This document shows positions 16,566 through 29,790 of a stretch of 64,000 bases of DNA, in pieces. The position numbers were made by a program, and so were the translations under genes. The notes beneath the pieces are model-generated. The model worked only from the letters and a program-made list of their open reading frames with translations, was not told where the DNA came from and did not search any database. Origin of the DNA: Desulfarculus baarsii DSM 2075 (lineage in GTDB: Bacteria; Desulfobacterota; Desulfarculia; Desulfarculales; Desulfarculaceae). Within the stretch, counting starts at the first letter, position 1, and every line of letters starts with the position of its first letter. The stretch spans positions 3,189,501 to 3,253,500 of the forward strand of contig NC_014365.1 of the NCBI RefSeq assembly GCF_000143965.1, written 5' to 3'.

Positions 16566-16596
16566 CCGGTTGTAAACGGATTCCCAGGGGTTGGAC

Positions 16597-17986: not shown

Positions 17987-18424
17987 ATGAACGCGTCAGC
18001 GAAACGCGGCTATTGGGCCGCCCTGATTTGCTCATTGACCATGGCGCTTTGCCTGGCCGGCCCCTTGCCGGCGCGGTCGGCCCAGGACCAGGCCGGCCGC
18101 GCAGCCACGGAGTGGCTGGCGTTGGTGGATGGCGGCGACTATCGGCAGGCCTGGAGCGCGACCGGCGAGTTGATACGTGATGCGATGACCGCCCAGGCCT
18201 GGGAGTCGCTGCTGGAACAGGCGCGCCGCCCGTTGGGCGAAAAATCGGCCCGCCAGGAGACGTCGCGGCGCGCCTACGAGCAATTGCCCGGCGCGCCGGA
18301 TGGTCAATACCTGGTTCTGACCTTCGATTCCAGCTTTGCTCACAAGGCGCGGGCAATGGAGACACTGACCCTGCGCCGCGAGGCCGACGGCGTCTGGCGC
18401 GTGGTGGGCTACTTCATTCGTTGA
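17987..18424 (+). CDS. DUF4019 family secreted protein
   Basis: The 145-residue protein has a signal peptide at residues about 1-31 (a Lys/Arg start, then AALICSLTMALCLAGPLPARSA). The mature part matches DUF4019: AATEWLALVDGGDYRQAWSATG, RRPLGEKSARQE, LPGAPDGQYLVLTFDSSFAHKARAMET and a C-terminal GVWRVVGYFIR. The function of the family is unknown; an export or periplasmic location is inferred. The ATG at 17987 has GGAG with 7-nt spacing. Its message probably ends at the terminator at 18492-18514. The upstream 157-nt gap contains only a GGGGCCATGGCCCC palindrome. Confidence 0.85.
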   Translation: MNASAKRGYWAALICSLTMALCLAGPLPARSAQDQAGRAATEWLALVDGGDYRQAWSATGELIRDAMTAQAWESLLEQARRPLGEKSARQETSRRAYEQLPGAPDGQYLVLTFDSSFAHKARAMETLTLRREADGVWRVVGYFIR

Positions 18425-18514: not shown

Positions 18515-18547
18515 GTGCGAAAACAGCCGCGGAAGCCATTATCGCTC

Positions 18548-21277
18548 ATGAACCAGGATAGCGCCCCAGCCCCAGAGCGACCGGCGTTGGCAACCGGCCC
18601 CAAATATTATCTGGCCGTGGTAGGCATGATCTACGCCGCGGCCGTGGGCCTACGCGTGGCCCGTTTCCTTTCGGCCCGGCTATCGGCCGAAAACGGCTTG
18701 GTCGGCAGCACGGCCGAACAATTTCTGCGGGGCGACTTTCCCCTGTTCCTGATGGGCAAGGACTTCATGGGCGTCTATGACGTGTTGCCCATGGTCCCGC
18801 TTCTGCATTTCCTCGGGCCGTCGTCGTACATCCTCAATCTATGGTCGCCGCTCTACACCCTGGGGGCCATGATCGTCGTTCACCGGCTACTCCAACGCGT
18901 GGTCGGCCCCTGGGGCGTGCTGACGGGCCTGGCTTTTCTGGCCATCCCGCCGGCTTTCTGGCTGCACTACTGCGGCTACGCCCAGACTCACTACACTCTG
19001 GGCGTGCTGCTCAGCGCCCTGCTGATGCTCCAGACCGCGCGCCTGTCCGAGGCCGAGCACTGGGGCGCGGGCCAGACATTTTTGTGGGGCCTGGCCGCCG
19101 GGGCCGGGCTCTACGGCAACGCCCAGACGGTGGGCGTATTTTTGGCCTGCGCGGCCTTTTTGCTGGCCACGTCCTGGCGACGCGTGCGGCCGCTGAATCT
19201 GGTCGCCTTTTGCGGCGGCGGCCTGCTGGGCGGCCTGCCCCTGCTCTACTATCTGCTCACGGCCCAAACCGCCTACGCCGACAAGATCAACGTCTTTTCC
19301 TGGGGCTACGTGGCCAAGCATTTCCACGAGCTGTGGACCAACGCCCTGCCCATTATCCTGGGCTTCAACACTCCGCCCACGGGGGGAAGCCTGAGCCCCG
19401 CTTCGCCTTGGTTTGGCTTGTATCTGCTTTTGCTGGCGGTGGTCTGCGCGGGCCTTGGCGGGTTGATCCAGCGTGGTCTGCGGGGCCGCCCCCGCCTGGC
19501 GCTGCTGTTTCCCCTGGTGGCGGCGGTGTATGTGGTCATTTTGCTCACTAGCCACTATGGCCTTTTTCTGCATGGCAGCCAGCAGGCCTATCTCATGTCG
19601 CTGTACCTGGTCTTGCCCGCCGCCCTGGGCCTGGTGGTCACCTGGTTCGAACCACGCGCCAAGATCGCCGCCGGCTTGTTGACGGCCCTGACCATAGGCA
19701 TAAACGTCGGCGGTTACGCCGCCTTCCGGCCCAATGTCTACCCGCTGTTTCTTTCGCCGGCCATCCAGGCCCGGCAAAACCGCGATTACTTGGAGGCGGC
19801 GGAGCTTTTGCGCCGGGCCGGGGCCCACCATGTCTACGCCGAAAACAGTTGGCTCCTGGGCTTTTACGGCAATGGCGACCCGTTGGCGGTGCATCCGTGG
19901 CAGCCGCGCAAAAACGAGGACGCCCACCGGGTCGACGCCAGCCTTGATCCGTTGTTTTATGGCGTGGATATCGCTTCCTCGACGACTTTGCTGGGCCTGA
20001 AGCACAAAATCGCCACCGTGGGCGGTCGACTGTCGCGCTGGGGTTTTGCCCAGCCCGACAAGGGCCTTTTGCTGGAGCGCCACGCTTGGCGGGCCCGAAG
20101 TCTGAACGGCCAAGACCTGGGCGACGCCCTCGGCGATGGCGATTTGGCCAGCGGCTTCCAGACCGCCGGTCCAGCCGGGCCGGGCCAGGGTTTCGTCCTG
20201 GATTTGGGCGCGGCCCAGACGGTCAGCGGCCTGGCCCTGATCCCGCAAGGTTATGTCGAAACGCCCAAGGGCCTGACCATCGAGGGCTCGCTCGACGGCC
20301 ACGTCTTTTTCCCTCTGGCCCAAAGCCACGGCTACGTCGGGCCGTTCTATATGTCCGGGCCCCATCCGGTGCTCAAACTGCGTCATCCCAGGGTCGAAAG
20401 CTATTGGCGGCCTTGCCTAGTCCGCCAGATCAGGATCAGCCACCTTGGCCGCTCCAACCGGCCCTGGTCCGCGCGCGAGGTTCTGCTCTGGGGCCCCGGG
20501 CCGGCCGCCGGGCCAGACGCCGACTGGTCGTCCAGCGCCGTGGCCTTGCGCCGGCTGGTCGGCCGGCTCAAGCCCGCGCGGGTCTACGCCGACACCTGGG
20601 CGGCGGCGGTGGCGCGCACCAGCGCGGACGCGCCGCCGTGGATCAGCCTGGCCCACGGCTTCCACAACGAAAGCCGGCCCGATCCGCCCCTGGCGCAATG
20701 GCCGGAGCTGATCGCCGGGCGGGGCTCGTTGGTGGTCGTCGATCGGCCAGAGGCCGCCGCCACCCGCCGCGCCCTGGAGCTGCTGGGCTTGCCGTTCACG
20801 GAGGCGTCTGCCGGCCGATTACGGGCCTTCGCCCTTGGCAATCCACCGGCCCGCCCGGTCATCGAGCCCCGCGCGATCAGCTCGCGGCTCTCGCCCGCGG
20901 CCGCCGCCCAACTAGCCCACCCCGGCGGCCGAACGCCCTGGAGCACCAACGGCCCGCAAAGCGCCGGCGGCGCGCTGGATATCGACCTGGGCCGGCCGCG
21001 CCTGGTGCGGCTGGTGGAGCTGCGCACCCCCGATTTCGCCCAAGACTACCCCCGCGCGCTGACGGCGTGGGTCTCCGACGACGGCCGCGCCTGGCGACCC
21101 ACGCCCCTCGCGCCGGCCGGACCACTGTTCTTCAGCGGGCAGATGTTGCTGCGCCGTGGCGGCGCGGTCAATATCTTCAGCCTCGGACCTGGCGTGACCA
21201 CGCGCCATCTGCGCCTGGCCCTGGCCCCCAACCATTGCCCGTGGTGGTGGTCGGTCCAGGAGCTGGTTCTGCGCTAG
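18548..21277 (+). CDS. GT-C-like multi-pass membrane protein with two discoidin-like domains, paralog A
   Basis: A 909-residue protein with roughly ten membrane helices in residues 1-390. The fold resembles GT-C/PMT-like glycosyltransferases, which use polyprenyl-phosphate sugars outside the membrane. The loop after helix 1 reads SAENGLVGSTAEQFLRGDFP and contains a possible catalytic acid. The soluble C half has one F5/8-type-C (discoidin) like domain at residues about 535-650 (GFVLDLGAAQTVSGLALIP), a middle alpha/beta segment, and a second discoidin-like domain at about 800-909 (DIDLGRPRLVRLVELR, ending WWWSVQELVLR). It is a tandem paralog of the next gene. The start is set by alignment with it (MNQDSAPA versus MSQNSAPA); a GTG at 18515 abuts the terminator. 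A specific substrate cannot be given. Confidence 0.78.
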   Translation: MNQDSAPAPERPALATGPKYYLAVVGMIYAAAVGLRVARFLSARLSAENGLVGSTAEQFLRGDFPLFLMGKDFMGVYDVLPMVPLLHFLGPSSYILNLWSPLYTLGAMIVVHRLLQRVVGPWGVLTGLAFLAIPPAFWLHYCGYAQTHYTLGVLLSALLMLQTARLSEAEHWGAGQTFLWGLAAGAGLYGNAQTVGVFLACAAFLLATSWRRVRPLNLVAFCGGGLLGGLPLLYYLLTAQTAYADKINVFSWGYVAKHFHELWTNALPIILGFNTPPTGGSLSPASPWFGLYLLLLAVVCAGLGGLIQRGLRGRPRLALLFPLVAAVYVVILLTSHYGLFLHGSQQAYLMSLYLVLPAALGLVVTWFEPRAKIAAGLLTALTIGINVGGYAAFRPNVYPLFLSPAIQARQNRDYLEAAELLRRAGAHHVYAENSWLLGFYGNGDPLAVHPWQPRKNEDAHRVDASLDPLFYGVDIASSTTLLGLKHKIATVGGRLSRWGFAQPDKGLLLERHAWRARSLNGQDLGDALGDGDLASGFQTAGPAGPGQGFVLDLGAAQTVSGLALIPQGYVETPKGLTIEGSLDGHVFFPLAQSHGYVGPFYMSGPHPVLKLRHPRVESYWRPCLVRQIRISHLGRSNRPWSAREVLLWGPGPAAGPDADWSSSAVALRRLVGRLKPARVYADTWAAAVARTSADAPPWISLAHGFHNESRPDPPLAQWPELIAGRGSLVVVDRPEAAATRRALELLGLPFTEASAGRLRAFALGNPPARPVIEPRAISSRLSPAAAAQLAHPGGRTPWSTNGPQSAGGALDIDLGRPRLVRLVELRTPDFAQDYPRALTAWVSDDGRAWRPTPLAPAGPLFFSGQMLLRRGGAVNIFSLGPGVTTRHLRLALAPNHCPWWWSVQELVLR

Positions 21278-21361
21278 ACCGTTGGGGCGAACTGCGCTAT
21301 GCTGCACGCAAACGGTGGCGATGTCACGGTCATGGCCTGCCCCAAGGACCACAGCCGCGTC

Positions 21362-24169
21362 ATGAGTCAAAACAGCGCCCCGGCCGAGGAGCGGCCGGCG
21401 CCGGCAATCGCGCCGAAACGTTATCGGGCAATGGTCATCGCCCTCTACGCCGTGGCGGTGGGCCTGCGCTTGGCCCGTTACGCTTGCGGCCGCCTGTCGG
21501 GCGAAAACGCCCTTATCGGCTCCACGGCCGAGGAGTTCCTGCACGGCAATTTTCCTTTTTTTCTGCTGGGCAAGAATTTTTTCGGCACCTACGACGCCAT
21601 GCTCAGCGCCCCGCTGATTTTTCTGTTCGGGCCGTCGTCCTACATCCTCAACCTTTGGCCGCCGCTGTTCTCGCTGATCGTCATGGTGGTGGTGCACCGC
21701 GCGTTGATCCGCGTGCTCGACCCGCCGGGCGTGCTGGCGGGCCTGGCTTTCATGGCCGTCCCTCCGTCGCTGTGGCTGCTGTATTCCGGCTACGCCCAGA
21801 CCCATTATTCCCTCGACGTCGTCCTGAGCGCCCTTTTGCTGCTGCAAACCGTGCGGCTGAGCCAAGCCCCTCGCTGGAGCGCGGGCCAGGCCTTTTGGTG
21901 GGGCCTGGCCGCCGGGGCCGGCCTTTACACCAATCCACAGACGGTGTGCGTGTTTTTGGCCTGCGCGGCATTTTTGCTGGTCACGGCCTGGCGGCGCGTG
22001 CGGCCGCTGAACCTGGCGGCCTTTTGCGGCGGCGGCCTGCTGGGCGGCCTGCCCGTGCTCTGCTATTACGCATTGCACGATCTGACCTACAAAAAACAGC
22101 TGGCCTCGGTCTTTGGCTGGCATTATCTGCCGCCCAACCTGAAGGCCTTTTTGTTCAACTCGCTGCCCATCATCGTGGGCTTCAACACCAAGATCAGCGG
22201 TGACGAGCTGTTTGTTGGCTCACCGCGCTTTTGGGCCTACGCCGCCGTGGCCATGCTTATGGCCGTGGGCATGGGCGCGCTGTCGTGGCGCGGTCTGCGC
22301 GGCCGCCCCCGCGAGGCCGCCTTGCCGCCGCTGGTGGCCGCGGTCAACCTGGCCGTTTTGCTTTTTTCGGTCTATGGCTTGGCCCTGGCCTCCTATCGTC
22401 AGGCCTATCTACTGCCGTGGTATCTGGCCTTGCCCTTTTGCTGGGGACTGGCGGCCTCTTGGGCGGCGCGCTGGCGGACCTGGGCCTTATGGGCCTGTCT
22501 GGCCTTGATAATTGGCGTCAGCGTAAGTGGCTACCCGCGCTACACCTATCACGGGCTGCCGCTGTTTTTGCCGCCCTCCCGGCAATACGCCGAAAACCAG
22601 CTTTGCCAAGAACAGGCGCGGCAACTGCGCCAGGCCGGCGTCGCGGGCCTGTACGCCCTGGATAGCTGGCTGATAGGCTATTACACCGACGGCGACCCCC
22701 TGGCCGTGCACCCCTGGGCCGCGCGCAAACCCATGCACGCCCACCATGTCGACGCCATGGCTGATCCGCTGTTTTATGGCGATTTTCTGGCCGACGCGCC
22801 GGGGCTGTTAGGCCTGGCCCACAAAACCGCGCCAGTGGCCGGCCAACCAGGCCGGTGGGGTTTTGCCCAACCGGACAAGGGCCGACTGCTGGAACGCCGG
22901 AACTGGCGGGCCGCTAGCCTGGATGGCCTTGACCTACGCCGGGCGCTAAATGACAACGACCTGGCCACCGGCTTCCAGACGCCGGCCAACGCCGCGCCAG
23001 ATCAAGGCTTTGTCCTGGATTTGGGCGCGGCCCACGCCATCACGGGCGTCGGCCTCATCCCGGCCGATCACGCCCAGACCCCAGCCGGGCTGCGCATCGA
23101 GGCCTCGATCGACGGCGTTGGATATTGCACCTTGGCCCAGGCCGCGCACTATCGCGGCCCCTTTTACGTCTCCGGCCCCCATCCGTTTTTGCGCCTTTTC
23201 CATGGCCGGGTGGAGAGCTGGTGGCCGGCGCGGTCGATCCGTTATCTGCGCTTTACGCACCTGGGCCCGGCCAGGCATCCCTGGTCGGTGCGCGAAGTGT
23301 TGCTCTGGGGCCCCGCCGGGCCGGGCCAGCGCGCGACCGATTGGGCCCAGACCGCCGACGAGCTGACGCGGGTCGTGGCCGCGCTGAAGCCAAAGCGCGT
23401 CTATGCCGACGCCTGGGCCGCGGCCGTCTTGCGCCTTCGCCTGGACCACGAGCCCTGGATCAGCCTGAGCCAACCATACGACAACACCGGGGCCCAAACC
23501 ATGGAGCTTGGCCATTGGCCGAGGTTGGACCCCGCTCCGGGAACGGTGGTGGTCTTGGAGGCCGCCGAGGCCCCGGCGGCCCGTCTGGGCCTGGAGCGCT
23601 GGGGCTTCATCTTCGAGGAGCGCCGGGCCGGCCGGCTGGTGGCGTTTAATTTACTGGGCCAGCGCCTGGGGCCACGTATCGAGCCAGCGGCGGTGAGTTC
23701 GGCCAGCGACCCCCGGCGGGCCGCGGCCCTGACCGGCGCTGGCCCCGGCGACGGGCCATGGTCCTCGGGTGGCCCGCAAAACCAGGGCGGCGCACTGGTC
23801 ATCGACCTGGGCCTCAGCCAACCCGTGCGCTGGCTGGAGTTGCACTGCCCCAGCGCCTACAAAGATTTTGCCCGTGGCCTGGCGGCCCGCGCCTCCGACG
23901 ACGGCCACACCTGGCGCGTCGTGGAGATCACGCCCGCCGGCCCCCTGGCCTTCAGCGGCCAGGCCCTGCTGGCCCAGTCCGGCGCGGTGACCGCCTATCA
24001 CCTGGAAAACGGCCTGAAAGCACGCTATCTGGAACTGTCGCTGGACACCGGCGAACCACGCTGGTGGTGGTCGGTGGAAAAGTTGATCCTGCGCGCGCCG
24101 CCCAGGCCAGACCGGGCCACGCGACGCCAAGTCCCTCCGAACAACCCGCAAGTGGTGGCGATCCGATGA
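21362..24169 (+). CDS. GT-C-like multi-pass membrane protein with two discoidin-like domains, paralog B
   Basis: A 935-residue protein with the same architecture as the preceding gene and a tail of about 25 residues. The membrane half includes GENALIGSTAEEFLHGNFP and GPSSYILNLWPPL, matching paralog A in position. Discoidin-like domains lie at about 537-650 (GFVLDLGAAHAITGVGLIP) and 802-910 (LVIDLGLSQPVRWLELH, ending WWWSVEKLILR). DNA stretches around the FLACAAFLL and FCGGGLLGGLP segments are nearly identical in both copies, so this is a tandem duplication. The ATG at 21362 is chosen by alignment with paralog A and has only a weak upstream AAGGA. Its stop overlaps the GT2 start (ATGA), linking it to a polyprenyl-phosphate-type sugar donor enzyme. 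Confidence 0.78.
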   Translation: MSQNSAPAEERPAPAIAPKRYRAMVIALYAVAVGLRLARYACGRLSGENALIGSTAEEFLHGNFPFFLLGKNFFGTYDAMLSAPLIFLFGPSSYILNLWPPLFSLIVMVVVHRALIRVLDPPGVLAGLAFMAVPPSLWLLYSGYAQTHYSLDVVLSALLLLQTVRLSQAPRWSAGQAFWWGLAAGAGLYTNPQTVCVFLACAAFLLVTAWRRVRPLNLAAFCGGGLLGGLPVLCYYALHDLTYKKQLASVFGWHYLPPNLKAFLFNSLPIIVGFNTKISGDELFVGSPRFWAYAAVAMLMAVGMGALSWRGLRGRPREAALPPLVAAVNLAVLLFSVYGLALASYRQAYLLPWYLALPFCWGLAASWAARWRTWALWACLALIIGVSVSGYPRYTYHGLPLFLPPSRQYAENQLCQEQARQLRQAGVAGLYALDSWLIGYYTDGDPLAVHPWAARKPMHAHHVDAMADPLFYGDFLADAPGLLGLAHKTAPVAGQPGRWGFAQPDKGRLLERRNWRAASLDGLDLRRALNDNDLATGFQTPANAAPDQGFVLDLGAAHAITGVGLIPADHAQTPAGLRIEASIDGVGYCTLAQAAHYRGPFYVSGPHPFLRLFHGRVESWWPARSIRYLRFTHLGPARHPWSVREVLLWGPAGPGQRATDWAQTADELTRVVAALKPKRVYADAWAAAVLRLRLDHEPWISLSQPYDNTGAQTMELGHWPRLDPAPGTVVVLEAAEAPAARLGLERWGFIFEERRAGRLVAFNLLGQRLGPRIEPAAVSSASDPRRAAALTGAGPGDGPWSSGGPQNQGGALVIDLGLSQPVRWLELHCPSAYKDFARGLAARASDDGHTWRVVEITPAGPLAFSGQALLAQSGAVTAYHLENGLKARYLELSLDTGEPRWWWSVEKLILRAPPRPDRATRRQVPPNNPQVVAIR

Positions 24170-25116
24170 AACTGATAATCCAGATCCCCTGCTACAACGA
24201 AGAAGCAAACATCGCCGAGACCCTGGCCTGTCTGCCCCGGCGACTGCCCGGCGTGGACACCATCGAATGGCTCATCATCGACGACGGCTCCACCGACGGC
24301 ACCGTGGCCGCGGCCAAAGCCGCCGGGGCCGACCACGTGGTCAGCCTCAAACCCAACAAGGGCCTGGCCCGCGCCTTCATGGCCGGACTCAACGCCTCCC
24401 TGCGCGCCGGGGCCGACATCATCGTCAACACCGACGCCGACAACCAATACAACGCCGGCGACATCCCCAAGCTGATCCAGCCGATCATCAACGGCCAAGC
24501 CGATTTCGTCATCGGCGCACGGCCCATCCGCGAAACGACGGACTTTTCGGCGGTCAAGCGCTTCCTGCAAATGCTGGGCAGTTGGGTCGTGCGCAAGGCC
24601 AGCGGAACCGACATCCCCGACGCGCCCAGCGGCTTCCGGGCCATGAACCGCAAGACCGCGCTCTGCCTCAATGTTTTCGACAACTACACCTACACCCTGG
24701 AGACGATCATCCAGGCCGGCGCCGAAAACATGGAAATCGTTTCGGTGCCCATCCGCACCAACCCCGTGTCGCGCCAATCGCGCCTGGTCAAGAGCGTGCC
24801 CAGCTACGTCAAGCGCTCCATGGCCACCATCGTCCGCTCGCTGGTCTTTTATCGGCCGTTCCATTTTTTCAGCTTTTTGGGCGCGGCGCCCTTTGTAGGC
24901 TCGACGTTTCTGGCCGTGCGCTGGCTGGTGTTGTACTGGGGCGGCACTTCGCGGGCCCACGTGCCCAGCCTGGTGGTGGCCGCCGTGCTGGCCTTCGTGG
25001 CCTTCCAGTGCTGGTTCACCGGCTTGGTGCTCAGCTGTTTTTCGACCCAGCGTCGGATGTTGGCCGAGGTCCAGCGGGCCCAGCGTGGGCAGGAATTGGG
25101 CGGTGGCTTGGGCTAG
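24166..25116 (+). CDS. Family 2 glycosyltransferase, polyprenyl-phosphate sugar synthase type
   Basis: The 316-residue GT-A fold begins KLIIQIPCYNEEANIAETL. Motifs are WLIIDDGSTDGTVAAA, the metal-binding DxD at NTDADNQY, and a SGFRAMNRKTALCL acceptor-side block. After about residue 225 come two hydrophobic segments (FFSFLGAAPFVGSTFLAVRWL and VVAAVLAFVAFQCWFTGLVL), the GtrB/DPM1-like C-terminal membrane anchor. It probably transfers a sugar from a nucleotide-sugar to polyprenyl phosphate on the cytoplasmic face. The ATGA overlap with the GT-C-like gene suggests it supplies that protein. Its stop overlaps by 4 nt the convergent flippase-like gene. Confidence 0.9.
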   Translation: MKLIIQIPCYNEEANIAETLACLPRRLPGVDTIEWLIIDDGSTDGTVAAAKAAGADHVVSLKPNKGLARAFMAGLNASLRAGADIIVNTDADNQYNAGDIPKLIQPIINGQADFVIGARPIRETTDFSAVKRFLQMLGSWVVRKASGTDIPDAPSGFRAMNRKTALCLNVFDNYTYTLETIIQAGAENMEIVSVPIRTNPVSRQSRLVKSVPSYVKRSMATIVRSLVFYRPFHFFSFLGAAPFVGSTFLAVRWLVLYWGGTSRAHVPSLVVAAVLAFVAFQCWFTGLVLSCFSTQRRMLAEVQRAQRGQELGGGLG

Positions 25117-26069
25117 GCCCCGGCCGATGGCGAGCCGCCCGGGGCCGCGCGCATGTAGGCCGCAATAAAAGGCAGACCGGCCAGGGCGGGCATGACGTAA
25201 CGCATGGTGCACAACAGCCCCAAGGCCGCGCCGACGGCCGGGCTGAAATAGCCGGCGTAGAGGTAGATCAACGCCGCGTCCCGCGCGCCGACGCCGGCGA
25301 ACGAAAAGGGCAGCAGCCCCGCGAAGATGGCCAGGGCCGTCAGGCTGAAGCTGACCACCAGGCCCACCTGGGCGTTGAGGGCCAGGATAAACAGCCAGAT
25401 CTGCAACAGATGCATCAACCACAGCGCCAGCGAGGCCAGGGCCACCCGCAGGCCGGCCGCCGGCGAGGCGGCCAACTGCCGCTGCATGACGCTCCACGAC
25501 TGTTCGGTGCGCCCAATGAATTCCCGCGCCTTGGCCCAGGGGATCAGCCGGGCCAGGCCGAAAAACAGCCCGGCCAAACGCCGGCTGACCAATAGCGACA
25601 GCCCGATCACCCACAAGCAGGCCGCCGCCACGCCCAGCCCACGCACCACGGCGTCGGCGCTTTGCAGCACCAAAAGCCCCACCAAGCACCAGCTAAGCAG
25701 CGAAAGCACGTCGCAGAGCTTTTCAAAAAGCACCACGCTGAGGGCCGCCGGGCCGGTCATGTGGCCTTTGTTGCGCATGAAATAGGCCTTGGACAGATCG
25801 CCGATCTTGGAGGGCAAGACCATGTTGAGCGTGCTGGCCGCCAGCACCAGCTTGAGCGCCTCGCCCAGGCCAACGTTGGCCCAACGAGGCACCAACAGCA
25901 AAAAACGCCACGCCGTAAACACGGTGATCGGCGCGACCATGGCCAGGCCGACCAGCAGCAAGCCGCCCCGGCAATGCAGCACGACGGCGATGAATGCGTC
26001 CAGGTCGATAAGGCTGTAGATGGCCGCCAACAGGCCCAGGCTGATGACGATGGCGATCAGCCGCTTCAT
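25113..26069 (-). CDS. Flippase-like integral membrane protein (UPF0104/YbhN family)
   Basis: The 318-residue protein has about eight hydrophobic helices and no soluble domain. The signature regions are RFLLLVPRWANVGLGEALKLV, STLNMVLPSKIGDLSKAYFM and VVLFEKLCDVLSLLSW. It belongs to the lysylphosphatidylglycerol-synthase-TM / flippase-like family, members of which occur near polyprenyl-phosphate sugar genes (AglD-type) and lipid modification genes. A role in moving or presenting the lipid-linked sugar is inferred, not shown. It starts 1 nt after the stop of the upstream toroidal protein gene, so the two are translated together. It converges on the GT2 gene. Confidence 0.82.
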   Translation of the reverse strand: MKRLIAIVISLGLLAAIYSLIDLDAFIAVVLHCRGGLLLVGLAMVAPITVFTAWRFLLLVPRWANVGLGEALKLVLAASTLNMVLPSKIGDLSKAYFMRNKGHMTGPAALSVVLFEKLCDVLSLLSWCLVGLLVLQSADAVVRGLGVAAACLWVIGLSLLVSRRLAGLFFGLARLIPWAKAREFIGRTEQSWSVMQRQLAASPAAGLRVALASLALWLMHLLQIWLFILALNAQVGLVVSFSLTALAIFAGLLPFSFAGVGARDAALIYLYAGYFSPAVGAALGLLCTMRYVMPALAGLPFIAAYMRAAPGGSPSAGA

Positions 26070-26070
26070 G

Positions 26071-27678
26071 TCATAAACGCCTTTCCAGCCGCAGGGCCTG
26101 GCCGTCGGCCGGTCGTGGCTGGCCAGGGATCAGCTCCAGCCACTCCTGGAGCTGGCCTTGCTGATAGGTGCGGCTCATGGCGATGTAGATCGATGTCTGA
26201 TCGCAGCCGATGGCCACTCGCTCCACCGCCGACCAATCCGGGCAGTTCAGCTCGTCGGTTATCGTCCAGCCGCCGTCCGCGAAGCGAAACACCCGCCGAA
26301 AGCGGTGCGGCGACTCTCGCCGGCCAACGATCAACAGTCGCTGCAACACACGGCGCACCAAGTCCGGGGCCAGCCGTCCCACGCTGAGCATGCCCAAGCG
26401 CAGAATTAGCAACCTGGTGGTGGTCATCAGGCTCTGCTTGGCCCAACTCAGGTGGCCGGCCACGCTGATTGCATCGTCGCTCAACTCCAGGTCGTAGTCG
26501 CCGCACATATGACCCACGGCGTTGCGCGCCTTTTTGCCCCGGCGTTCCACCACCGAAAGCTGGCTGTCGCTGATCGCCAAGGCGTCATCCTTGAATAGCT
26601 TGAAGGCCCCGCCCTTGTTCAGGCCGGCGTAAAGCTCGTAGCCAGAGCGCCGCTCCACCAGCAGCCCCGCCTCGGCAAACCACAGCCGCCCCTGGGGCCG
26701 GGGGCCGGGTTCGGGCCGCTGCTCCACGAAATCGCGCCAGGTCAGCAGATAGTTGATCACGTGATGGCCCAGGATGTGGTCGTCGCCGTGGCAGGCCTCC
26801 AGGCCGCCGCGCAAGGCGCGCGCGAAGCGGGTGTTGAGATCCAAGGCCGGCGGATGCCAGCGGCCGGCCAGCTCGAAGCCGTGCGGAAAATAATTATAGG
26901 TGTTGCGGCTGCAATATTCGCCGCCCAACGTGCCGTCGGGGTGCATGAGTTGGGCCACGAAATCGATGGCTTGGCGCAGGGGCTCGCGTAGCCCCAGCCC
27001 TGGGCGCAGGCGATCCAGATCAGCCAGATAGGCGATGGTCAACGTCAGATAACCGGGGTCGCAACCGTCGTATTCGGGAAACCAGCCCTCGGCGCGCCGC
27101 CACGCGAGCAACTGCCTGACCCGTTCTTCAATGGCCGTTTCGAAGCGCTCCGTGCCCAATAGCTCGGCGCTCTTGGCCAGGCCCAGCGCGACCAGGGCCT
27201 GATGGTTGGACAGCTGGCCCGACTCCTGGCGTTGGGCCAGCCAGACCGCCCGTTTTTCGACAAAACGCAGCAGATCATCGTCGTCCAGGCCCAGCAGCAG
27301 CATGCTCTCGGCAAAGGCCAGCAGGGTGAACGCCGCCGCGCCCAAGGCCTTTTCAAAGGGGTAATAATCGTCGCACGAGCCATCGGCGTGGGCCGAGGCC
27401 GCCGCGAAGCCGATGCCGGCCCGCACCCACTGTCGCAGGGCCTCTTGGCCGCGCCACGGGTTGTCGGGCAGATCCAGGGCGTACACCAGCGCCAGAGGGT
27501 AGACGAACTCCTGGGACATACCGCAGGGAAAATCGATGATTTTGTAGTGCCAGTGGTTGCGGTCGAAGCAGCCATGGGTGGGGCTGTGACGGTTGCGATC
27601 CTGCAAGGTGAGAATCTTGGGGATATCGGCCAGAGCCTTGGCGGCGAAGAGGTCGCGGATCGAGGTTACCGTGGTCAT
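26071..27678 (-). CDS. Putative alpha/alpha-toroid protein, heparinase II/III-like C-terminus
   Basis: A 535-residue soluble protein without signal peptide. Residues about 1-330 are helical repeats of the toroidal type, with clustered Trp/His/Tyr (HGCFDRNHWHYKIIDFPCGM, DGSCDDYYPFEKALGAAAF, YCSRNTYNYFPHGFELAGRW). The remainder looks like a beta-sandwich (LWFAEAGLLVERRSGYELYA, GGAFKLFKDDALAISDS). This resembles heparinase II/III-like or related polysaccharide-active folds, but I cannot place it firmly. The ATG at 27678 is used; the frame extends to 27921 only through the tRNA-Ala region. Coupling with the flippase-like gene and its position beside the GT genes suggest a part in glycan handling. 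Confidence 0.62.
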   Translation of the reverse strand: MTTVTSIRDLFAAKALADIPKILTLQDRNRHSPTHGCFDRNHWHYKIIDFPCGMSQEFVYPLALVYALDLPDNPWRGQEALRQWVRAGIGFAAASAHADGSCDDYYPFEKALGAAAFTLLAFAESMLLLGLDDDDLLRFVEKRAVWLAQRQESGQLSNHQALVALGLAKSAELLGTERFETAIEERVRQLLAWRRAEGWFPEYDGCDPGYLTLTIAYLADLDRLRPGLGLREPLRQAIDFVAQLMHPDGTLGGEYCSRNTYNYFPHGFELAGRWHPPALDLNTRFARALRGGLEACHGDDHILGHHVINYLLTWRDFVEQRPEPGPRPQGRLWFAEAGLLVERRSGYELYAGLNKGGAFKLFKDDALAISDSQLSVVERRGKKARNAVGHMCGDYDLELSDDAISVAGHLSWAKQSLMTTTRLLILRLGMLSVGRLAPDLVRRVLQRLLIVGRRESPHRFRRVFRFADGGWTITDELNCPDWSAVERVAIGCDQTSIYIAMSRTYQQGQLQEWLELIPGQPRPADGQALRLERRL

Positions 27679-27872: not shown

Positions 27873-27948
27873 TGGTGGAGCTAAGGGGGCTCGAACCCCT
27901 GACCTCTTGACTGCCAGTCAAGCGCTCTCCCAGCTGAGCTATAGCCCC
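27873..27948 (-). tRNA. tRNA-Ala (anticodon GGC)
   Basis: 76 nt with encoded CCA. It has acceptor GGGGCTA, D arm GCTCAGCTGGGAGAGC, anticodon arm CTTGA-CTGGCAG-TCAAG with GGC, and T arm CAGGGG-TTCGAAC-CCCC. The discriminator is A. It has its own promoter upstream and a terminator downstream. Confidence 0.97.
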
Positions 27949-28122: not shown

Positions 28123-29790
28123 ATGAGCCAACGAAAGCGGGCTTTCCAGGAAGTAATAATCAACCAGACGCCCTTGTGGGACTATTTCGCCGCCAGCGCC
28201 GAGGCCGTCGACTTTGATCATCTGCGTCAGGCCCTGGATTTTCTGCACATCGACGGCGGACTTATCGCCGCCTACGGCCCCGACTACCCCCTGGTCGAGC
28301 CGCGCGAGTTGGCCCCGCCCCTGGATTCTCCGCTGATCGAGCACACCAGCCTGCCGGCCTTCAGCATGGTCGTCTTCGACCGTCCGTTAAGTTATCAGGA
28401 CGAAGGTTTTCAGTTCGATCTGCTCACGCCCGAGGGCCGGCCCAGCGACCCCAGCCTGGCCGCCGCCAACCGCCAAGCCTTTCGCGGCCGGCTGCCGCGC
28501 AACCTTTGGGGCCGCATGGAGCGGATCATCGGCCGCCGGGCGGTGACTCCCCTGGCCAACTACCCCGACATTTTCGAGTTGGTCACGCACATGGACCGCG
28601 CCCACGTCCTGGCCCGCGACGCCAGCGGCGAATTCCGCATGCTGGGCGTGTTCGCCTCCCTGCCCTCGGACCTGGACGGCGAGATCAAGCGCTTCGGCCG
28701 GCATATCGGCAAGTTCAGCCCTGGCGACAACGAAAGATACGCCGCCAACCGCCTGTTCGTCTATCGCTTCCTGATGGAGCAGACCGGCATGCCCATCTGC
28801 GGCGAGCGCCACACCTCGGCGGCCTTGTTCGCCCGCCGCCTGATGCAGCGCCGCGAGCGCTTCATCATCAAGGTGCTGGGTCAGAGCGACCGAGCCATCA
28901 CCACCCTGACCAGCCATGGCGCGCACAACTCGTTGCCTCGCGTGGAAAAGGTCGCCCTGGTTCAGGCCGCCGCCTGTGATCCCGAACGCCTGGCGCGCAT
29001 CCGCCAGGAGGGCTTTTTCCTCGATCCGGCCCGCCAGGTGGTCATCCTGCGCGTGCGTTATCAGCAGCACGCCTATCACGTCGACAACGTCATGGAAGAC
29101 CGCGCCTGCTCGGTGCTGGCCCAGGAGCTGATCCATCCGGTCAACGGCAGAGTCCTGGGCGAAGTGGACGTGCTGGGCCTCAACCAGGATCGCCTGCTGC
29201 AACTAAACGACATCGTGCGCGGCGAGTATCAGGGCGACATCGTCTATCGCGGCCGCGAGGTGATCTCCTCCACCGGCGCCATCGACGACCGGCTGCGCTT
29301 TCTGGTCGCCTGGCTGCAAAAAAACCGCTTCCAGATCGCCGACTACAGCCCCGACCACTTCGATCGCATCCTCAAAGTGGTTTTGAAGTTCCTTGGCGAA
29401 CCGACCCACGCCGAGGATTTGACCCGCCACGAAGAATTGGCCCAAGAAGCCCAGACCTTGCTGGCCGAATTGCGCCTGTCCCACCGACTCCGCCTGCTGG
29501 AGCGTCTGGTGCGCACCCGCTCTGACTCCGAGGGGCGCAAGCTGCAACACGCGCAGATCCTGGTCATCCTCAATCATTTTTTGGGCACCGAGGGCGAAGA
29601 ACTGGCCGCCCAGCATCCCAAAGTCATGCGCAAGCTGCTGCGCATCTGCGTGCGCTACCTCGACCAACCCTACCTACGGCGGCAATACCTGGCCAAGACG
29701 CCCAAGACCCAATACGACCATAACCTGCTGGACGAATACGAACGCCTGACCCAGTTCGTGGAGCAGTGCCAGATCATGGTCGGCCGTTGA
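28123..29790 (+). CDS. Hypothetical protein of 555 residues, family not recognised
   Basis: The ATG at 28123 has GGGAG 4 nt upstream and a clean promoter; the frame extends six codons further. The protein is soluble with no signal peptide or Cys motif. Its N-terminal third is mixed alpha/beta (HIDGGLIAAYGPDYPLVEPR, LPAFSMVVFDRPLSYQDEGF). The middle has several His/Glu/Arg-rich stretches (MPICGERHTSAALFARRLMQR, VRYQQHAYHVDNVMEDRACS, AQELIHPVNGRVLGEVDVLG). From residue about 430 it is helical and charged (TRHEELAQEAQTLLAELRLSH, LRICVRYLDQPYLRRQYLAK). No nucleotide-binding or known catalytic motif is evident. Codon composition looks like its neighbours. moaA follows 52 nt downstream. Function unknown. 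Confidence 0.8.
   Translation: MSQRKRAFQEVIINQTPLWDYFAASAEAVDFDHLRQALDFLHIDGGLIAAYGPDYPLVEPRELAPPLDSPLIEHTSLPAFSMVVFDRPLSYQDEGFQFDLLTPEGRPSDPSLAAANRQAFRGRLPRNLWGRMERIIGRRAVTPLANYPDIFELVTHMDRAHVLARDASGEFRMLGVFASLPSDLDGEIKRFGRHIGKFSPGDNERYAANRLFVYRFLMEQTGMPICGERHTSAALFARRLMQRRERFIIKVLGQSDRAITTLTSHGAHNSLPRVEKVALVQAAACDPERLARIRQEGFFLDPARQVVILRVRYQQHAYHVDNVMEDRACSVLAQELIHPVNGRVLGEVDVLGLNQDRLLQLNDIVRGEYQGDIVYRGREVISSTGAIDDRLRFLVAWLQKNRFQIADYSPDHFDRILKVVLKFLGEPTHAEDLTRHEELAQEAQTLLAELRLSHRLRLLERLVRTRSDSEGRKLQHAQILVILNHFLGTEGEELAAQHPKVMRKLLRICVRYLDQPYLRRQYLAKTPKTQYDHNLLDEYERLTQFVEQCQIMVGR

Follow-up and report, generated by a model that had tools for sequence, protein, structure and literature searches.

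A predicted glycosylation locus with a duplicated, discoidin-tailed GT-C gene pair and a PF03706 flippase-like gene in Desulfarculus baarsii

Described three-component systems and their relatives

Several described systems combine a donor synthase, a flippase and an extracytoplasmic glycosyltransferase of the GT-C type. In GtrA/GtrB/Gtr and ArnC/ArnEF/ArnT, a GT2 enzyme loads polyprenyl phosphate and is followed by a periplasmic GT-C enzyme, the flippase being GtrA or an EmrE-like (SMR) protein; across the described three-component systems, the flippases are of the GtrA, Wzx, SMR or MATE type (PMC8035078, PMC11127046). Systems in which the GT-C enzyme carries a glycan-binding module have also been published. 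The pentofuranose system of Citrobacter youngae O1/O2 (ORF15, ORF14 and ORF12/GT136) comprises a donor synthase, a flippase and a GT-C enzyme with a C-terminal acceptor-binding module, and in O1 this CBM binds the acceptor O-polysaccharide and is dispensable for activity (PMC11127046). The mycobacterial AftD/Emb (EmbC) arabinosyltransferases likewise consist of a GT-C part followed by glycan-binding beta-sandwich domains.

For PF03706 proteins, which are also found fused to AglD, a role in flipping lipids and lipid-linked saccharides has been predicted; in archaea, a PF03706 protein (arCOG00899) adjoins a PMT/STT3-like protein (arCOG00563) and an AglD-like GT2, a neighbourhood whose function is predicted (PMC5898192). 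Flipping, on glycolipids, is likewise predicted for GpgF, a bacterial PF03706 homolog (PMC12713373). In the open papers searched (PMC5898192, PMC12713373), that PF03706 proteins flip lipid-linked sugars stands as a prediction, not as a demonstrated activity.

The D. baarsii locus described here resembles each of these and differs from each. Where Citrobacter O1/O2 has a phosphoribosyltransferase and a phosphatase as synthase, a MATE flippase and, in the prototype, one CBM and no duplicated GT-C, D. baarsii has a GT2, a PF03706 protein and a pair of GT-C proteins with two discoidin domains each. Compared with AftD/Emb, the D. baarsii protein is smaller, its domains are placed differently, and it belongs to another phylum with another cell envelope. 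The GtrA/GtrB/Gtr and ArnC/ArnEF/ArnT systems, unlike D. baarsii, use a GtrA or SMR flippase and a GT-C enzyme without tandem CBM32 domains. The archaeal neighbourhood sets the same three kinds of protein side by side, with discoidin tails and a duplicated GT-C unmentioned in PMC5898192. Our literature searches on discoidin-bearing GT39-type enzymes and on heparinase-like genes in O-antigen clusters found nothing useful. An earlier note on this DNA, made from the letters alone, had presented the locus as a candidate undescribed lipid-linked glycosylation system. This stands for the exact set of genes, which we have not found described, but not for the kind of system, since both three-component systems (PMC11127046) and the archaeal neighbourhood (PMC5898192) are already in print: the design is known from other bacteria, and this gene combination is new and partly lineage-specific.

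The locus and its gene products

The window analysed is a stretch of 64,000 nucleotides (bases 3189501-3253500) of the complete D. baarsii genome (3,655,731 bases), and positions below are those of the window. The earlier note had reported two tandem GT-C-like genes coupled to a GT2 gene, with a flippase-like and a heparinase-like gene converging on them, and all five ORFs were indeed found in this arrangement, with homologs of each in related genomes. GT-C membrane protein 1 (18548..21277, + strand; 909 aa) is followed by GT-C membrane protein 2 (21362..24169, + strand; 935 aa), which is 54% identical to it. Alternative starts exist for both (GTG at 18515 and ATG at 21299, respectively), but 18548 and 21362 are the likely ones because both proteins then open with M[NS]Q[DN]SAPA.ERP. 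GT-C gene 2 shares a 4-base ATGA overlap with the GT2 gene (24166..25116, + strand; 316 aa), which starts at 24166. The GT2 gene in turn overlaps the flippase-like gene (25113..26069, - strand; 318 aa) tail to tail by 4 bases (25113-25116), and a single base separates the latter from the heparinase-like gene (26071..27678, - strand; 535 aa). The layout suggests two operons that converge, with GT-C 1, GT-C 2 and GT2 in one and the heparinase-like and flippase-like genes in the other.

GT-C gene 1 is preceded on the same strand by a gene (17987-18424) for a DUF4019 protein (7e-37) with a hydrophobic N-terminus. The heparinase-like gene has a tRNA-Ala gene (27873-27948) immediately upstream, on its own strand, and insertion beside this tRNA was considered; GC content lends that idea no support. 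A composition-defined island was ruled out, the GC content of the five genes (0.64-0.68) lying inside the range of the window, and in viral contigs the GT-C and heparinase-like profiles gave no relatives that would point to a phage origin. Beyond the tRNA gene, 28123-29790 encodes a 555-residue protein without a Pfam match that is 54-62% identical in 19 of the 20 genomes of the family and whose homologs adjoin a moaA-like gene in most genomes inspected. The 28123-moaA block and the gene at 16591 are kept in relatives, in a different arrangement.

The N half of GT-C protein 1 was compared with known structures using an AlphaFold model built on an alignment of 13 sequences (pLDDT 83, pTM 0.78). 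Residues 18-501 (18599..20050, + strand) match ArnT (5f15; Z 23.0 over 429 residues) and AglB (3waj; Z 23.5) and also Pmt4 and PglB, which at the level of the model confirms the GT-C fold proposed in the earlier note. A Pfam search of both window proteins gave only F5/8 type C stretches and no PMT_2 (PF13231), while PMT_2 was matched by 7 of the 13 aligned family members at E <= 1 (best 2.5e-9). With the full-length protein, the top Foldseek match is mycobacterial AftD (E 5.6e-10; ~12% identity), with an rmsd of about 25 A over the whole chain, so that domain placement differs between the two.

The two discoidin-like domains ascribed to each protein were also recovered: F5/8 type C (PF00754) scores over its cut-off for two stretches in each (9e-10, 3e-10). 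In protein 1, the best structures for domain 1 (residues 506-650; 20063..20497, + strand), which also matches PF00754, are sugar-binding CBM32 modules (Z about 15), and domain 2 (residues 787-899; 20906..21244, + strand; PF00754 E 9.1e-10) can be aligned to domain 1 with hhalign. Each GT-C protein is therefore predicted to possess a CBM32-type discoidin beta-sandwich twice over, with sugar binding as the predicted function. The C half of protein 1 is made up of two units, each a small alpha/beta part plus a discoidin part, that match mutually (hhalign E 6.7e-10), as do the discoidin parts alone (E 3.1e-11); by these profile comparisons, it is an internal duplication. In a tree of GT-C homologs, the two window proteins pair with support of 100/100, the next sequence being L003 from another genus (44%), and on this evidence they are a lineage-specific duplicate pair.

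Alignment and secondary structure place E48 of protein 1 (codon 18689..18691, + strand), the acid that starts the helix after TM1, at the predicted catalytic position. Of 25 homologs, 22 have Asp at position 48 and the other three, the window pair and L003, have Glu; positions 48 and 78 are acidic in all 25. In ArnT, PMT and Emb enzymes (PMC7801869) and in PimE (PMC12041525), the Asp at the matching place is described as the acid of the active site, the match being drawn from place in the fold and alignment within the family. Judged by this alignment, Glu in place of the catalytic Asp is unusual.

Assignment of the GT2 protein to the polyprenyl-phosphate-sugar synthases is well supported by sequence comparison: it matches PF00535 (E 2.9e-24), and its nearest solved structures are Pyrococcus DPMS (PfDPMS, 3.7e-12), ArnC and GtrB, in keeping with the GtrB/DPM1 type given earlier. 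The closest NCBIfam model is AglJ (1.5e-25), at a score far below the AglJ cut-off. GT2 genes are common, with 10-29 per genome.

The flippase-like protein proved to belong to PF03706/UPF0104 (PF03706 E 6.2e-30, 105.1 bits against a cut-off of 33.4; TIGR00374 43.6 against a cut-off of 43.2) and not to the GtrA/SMR, Wzx or MATE types. Given that described systems use flippases of those types, PF03706 would be the variant part of the system. Three further PF03706 genes are found in the D. baarsii genome.

For the fifth protein, a toroidal, heparinase-like fold had been proposed, and sequence evidence lends this modest support. No Pfam match was found at E <= 1, Hepar_II_III models included, nor at E <= 5 when the protein was taken together with four relatives. 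A search of PDB profiles gave weak alpha-toroid matches only (E >= 0.05), and a single-sequence AlphaFold model was unusable (pLDDT 39). On the positive side, SNH and DPGY motifs are invariant in all five sequences, and when a profile of the five was aligned with four members of the heparinase family (PF07940) found in the same class (hhalign probability 61%, E 8e-5), SNH fell on SNH/NNH and DPGY on VPY. Lyases of the heparinase type use Asn, His and Tyr in catalysis. Inspection by eye revealed no evident signal peptide. Relatives of the gene sit among polysaccharide genes, beside AsnB-like genes, in three genomes (G002, G003 and G011, by eye); in one of these (G002, 71% complete), no GT-C relative was detected. 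The protein is probably not a core part of the system but a polysaccharide-modifying enzyme in its own right, encoded in one operon with the flippase-like gene.

Neighbourhoods in the Desulfarculaceae

The earlier note had said that its reading would be refuted by homologs of the five genes that do not cluster elsewhere. In our sample of 20 Desulfarculaceae genomes, the set was indeed not found elsewhere, and a conserved five-gene system was rejected. The glycosylation model put forward in that note is reasonable and partly supported, but is of an already known kind. Across 63 genomes of the class, to which the GT-C and heparinase-like profiles were also applied, discoidin-tailed GT-C proteins turned up in 18 of the 20 family genomes and in none of the 43 others (E <= 0.001), an expansion in the Desulfarculaceae; more distant relatives occur in one MAG each from the Thermodesulfobacteriota and the Sumerlaeota.

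A smaller association of GT-C, GT2 and PF03706 genes does recur in the Desulfarculaceae, where it involves GT-C paralogs more distant from those of the window. Of the 37 genes in that more distant clade, 15 have PF03706 within 6 kb and at least 24 have GT2 in the same range. Members of the clade to which the window proteins belong (13 genes) mostly lack a GT2 or flippase nearby: PF03706 is within 6 kb of only four and GT2, among the matches listed, of three, two being the window pair in each case. Neighbours here include DNA-ligase-like, purA-like and ABC-exporter-like genes (names assigned by eye). Counted per locus, PF03706 is found within 6 kb of GT-C at 12 of 43 family loci where about 0.7 would be expected from random placement; as glycan genes tend to cluster in any case, this null is a lenient one. 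Six of the 12 loci (G003 and G005-G009) are a single orthologous cluster from one genus and so do not count as independent. Contig ends hide some neighbours.

Pairs of a GT2 and a PF03706 gene are widespread across the family (for example L046:9195-10918, L052:11681-13417 and L058:2271-4017). Two genomes (G003 and G006) have such a pair at 2.6-4.9 kb from a close relative of the window's GT-C genes, which is not so in the window's own genome.

A proposed mechanism and its alternatives

We think it fairly probable that the locus encodes a three-component extracytoplasmic glycosylation system, for which we infer the following steps. The GT2 enzyme would transfer a sugar from its nucleotide-activated form to polyprenyl phosphate, and the PF03706 protein, or another flippase, would turn the lipid-linked sugar over to the periplasmic face. 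Both GT-C enzymes would then take it as donor for a surface or periplasmic glycan, the acceptor glycan being held by their tandem CBM32 domains, and the two copies may each have a site or an acceptor of their own. What the analysis shows directly is the fold, the domains, the overlapping genes and linkage at the level of the family; enzyme activities, flipping, donor, acceptor and division of labour are proposals. In favour of this mechanism are the GT-C fold with CBM32 domains and AftD as top Foldseek match, the acidic residues at positions 48 and 78, the likeness of the GT2 to DPMS, ArnC and GtrB and its ATGA overlap with GT-C 2, the proximity of PF03706 and GT2 to GT-C genes in the family, the archaeal PF03706 neighbourhoods, and the acceptor binding by the CBM of the Citrobacter O1 enzyme. 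Against it stand the rarity of PF03706 and GT2 near GT-C genes in the window's own clade, the placing of the flippase-like gene on the opposite strand with the heparinase-like gene, the Glu for Asp, the abundance of GT2 genes and the fact that six of the 12 loci are one orthologous cluster. The full version, in which PF03706 is a dedicated polyprenyl-phosphate-sugar flippase feeding a duplicated GT-C pair with two acceptor-holding CBM32 domains each and a catalytic Glu for Asp, is possible but tentative.

The strand and the 1-base spacing from the heparinase-like gene would also fit a different division of the locus, in which the GT-C pair and GT2 form a unit using a flippase encoded elsewhere, and the PF03706 and heparinase-like genes form a separate convergent operon acting on another lipid or polysaccharide. 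The genome has further PF03706 genes, and the family also has members with other substrates, phospholipids for MprF and, by prediction, glycolipids for GpgF (PMC12713373). The recurrence of PF03706 near GT-C and GT2 in Desulfarculaceae and archaea argues the other way, and we regard this division as rather unlikely.

It is less likely again that the GT-C enzymes modify proteins by PMT-like O-glycosylation, with the discoidin domains binding the glycoprotein as it grows, or some other partner. The GT-C fold resembles not only ArnT but also Pmt4 and oligosaccharyltransferases, homologs match PMT_2, and CBM32/discoidin folds also bind proteins and lipids (neuropilin and factor V/VIII appear in the Foldseek top list for protein 1), but the best structures for residues 506-650 are sugar-binding modules, and the closest architectures, AftD and Citrobacter ORF12, act on polysaccharides (PMC11127046). 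Restriction of Glu48 to the window pair and L003, at a place where characterised GT-C enzymes have an active-site Asp (PMC7801869, PMC12041525), could mean that one or both proteins are catalytically impaired and serve mainly in glycan binding or as a scaffold. This we consider very improbable, as an acid is retained at position 48, position 78 is acidic throughout, and both copies are full length, 54% identical and show no decay.

If the three-component reading is right, the GT-C pair with its tandem CBM32 domains would bring sulfate reducers into the range of the AftD/ORF12 design, in which the transferase itself keeps hold of the polymer that it modifies. The PF03706 flippase is the part most worth testing, and the recurrent GT-C/GT2/PF03706 clusters of the Desulfarculaceae offer a compact set for testing PF03706 flipping. 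At one locus (L049:1-10485), two GT-C genes, a GT2 and a PF03706 gene lie beside HddA-, GmhA-, GmhB- and HddC-like genes, assignments that mostly fall below NCBIfam cut-offs; orthologous clusters (L031, L032, L059, L061 and L062) are found in the same Desulfarculaceae genus. The gene content of these clusters hints at a donor of the heptose type there.
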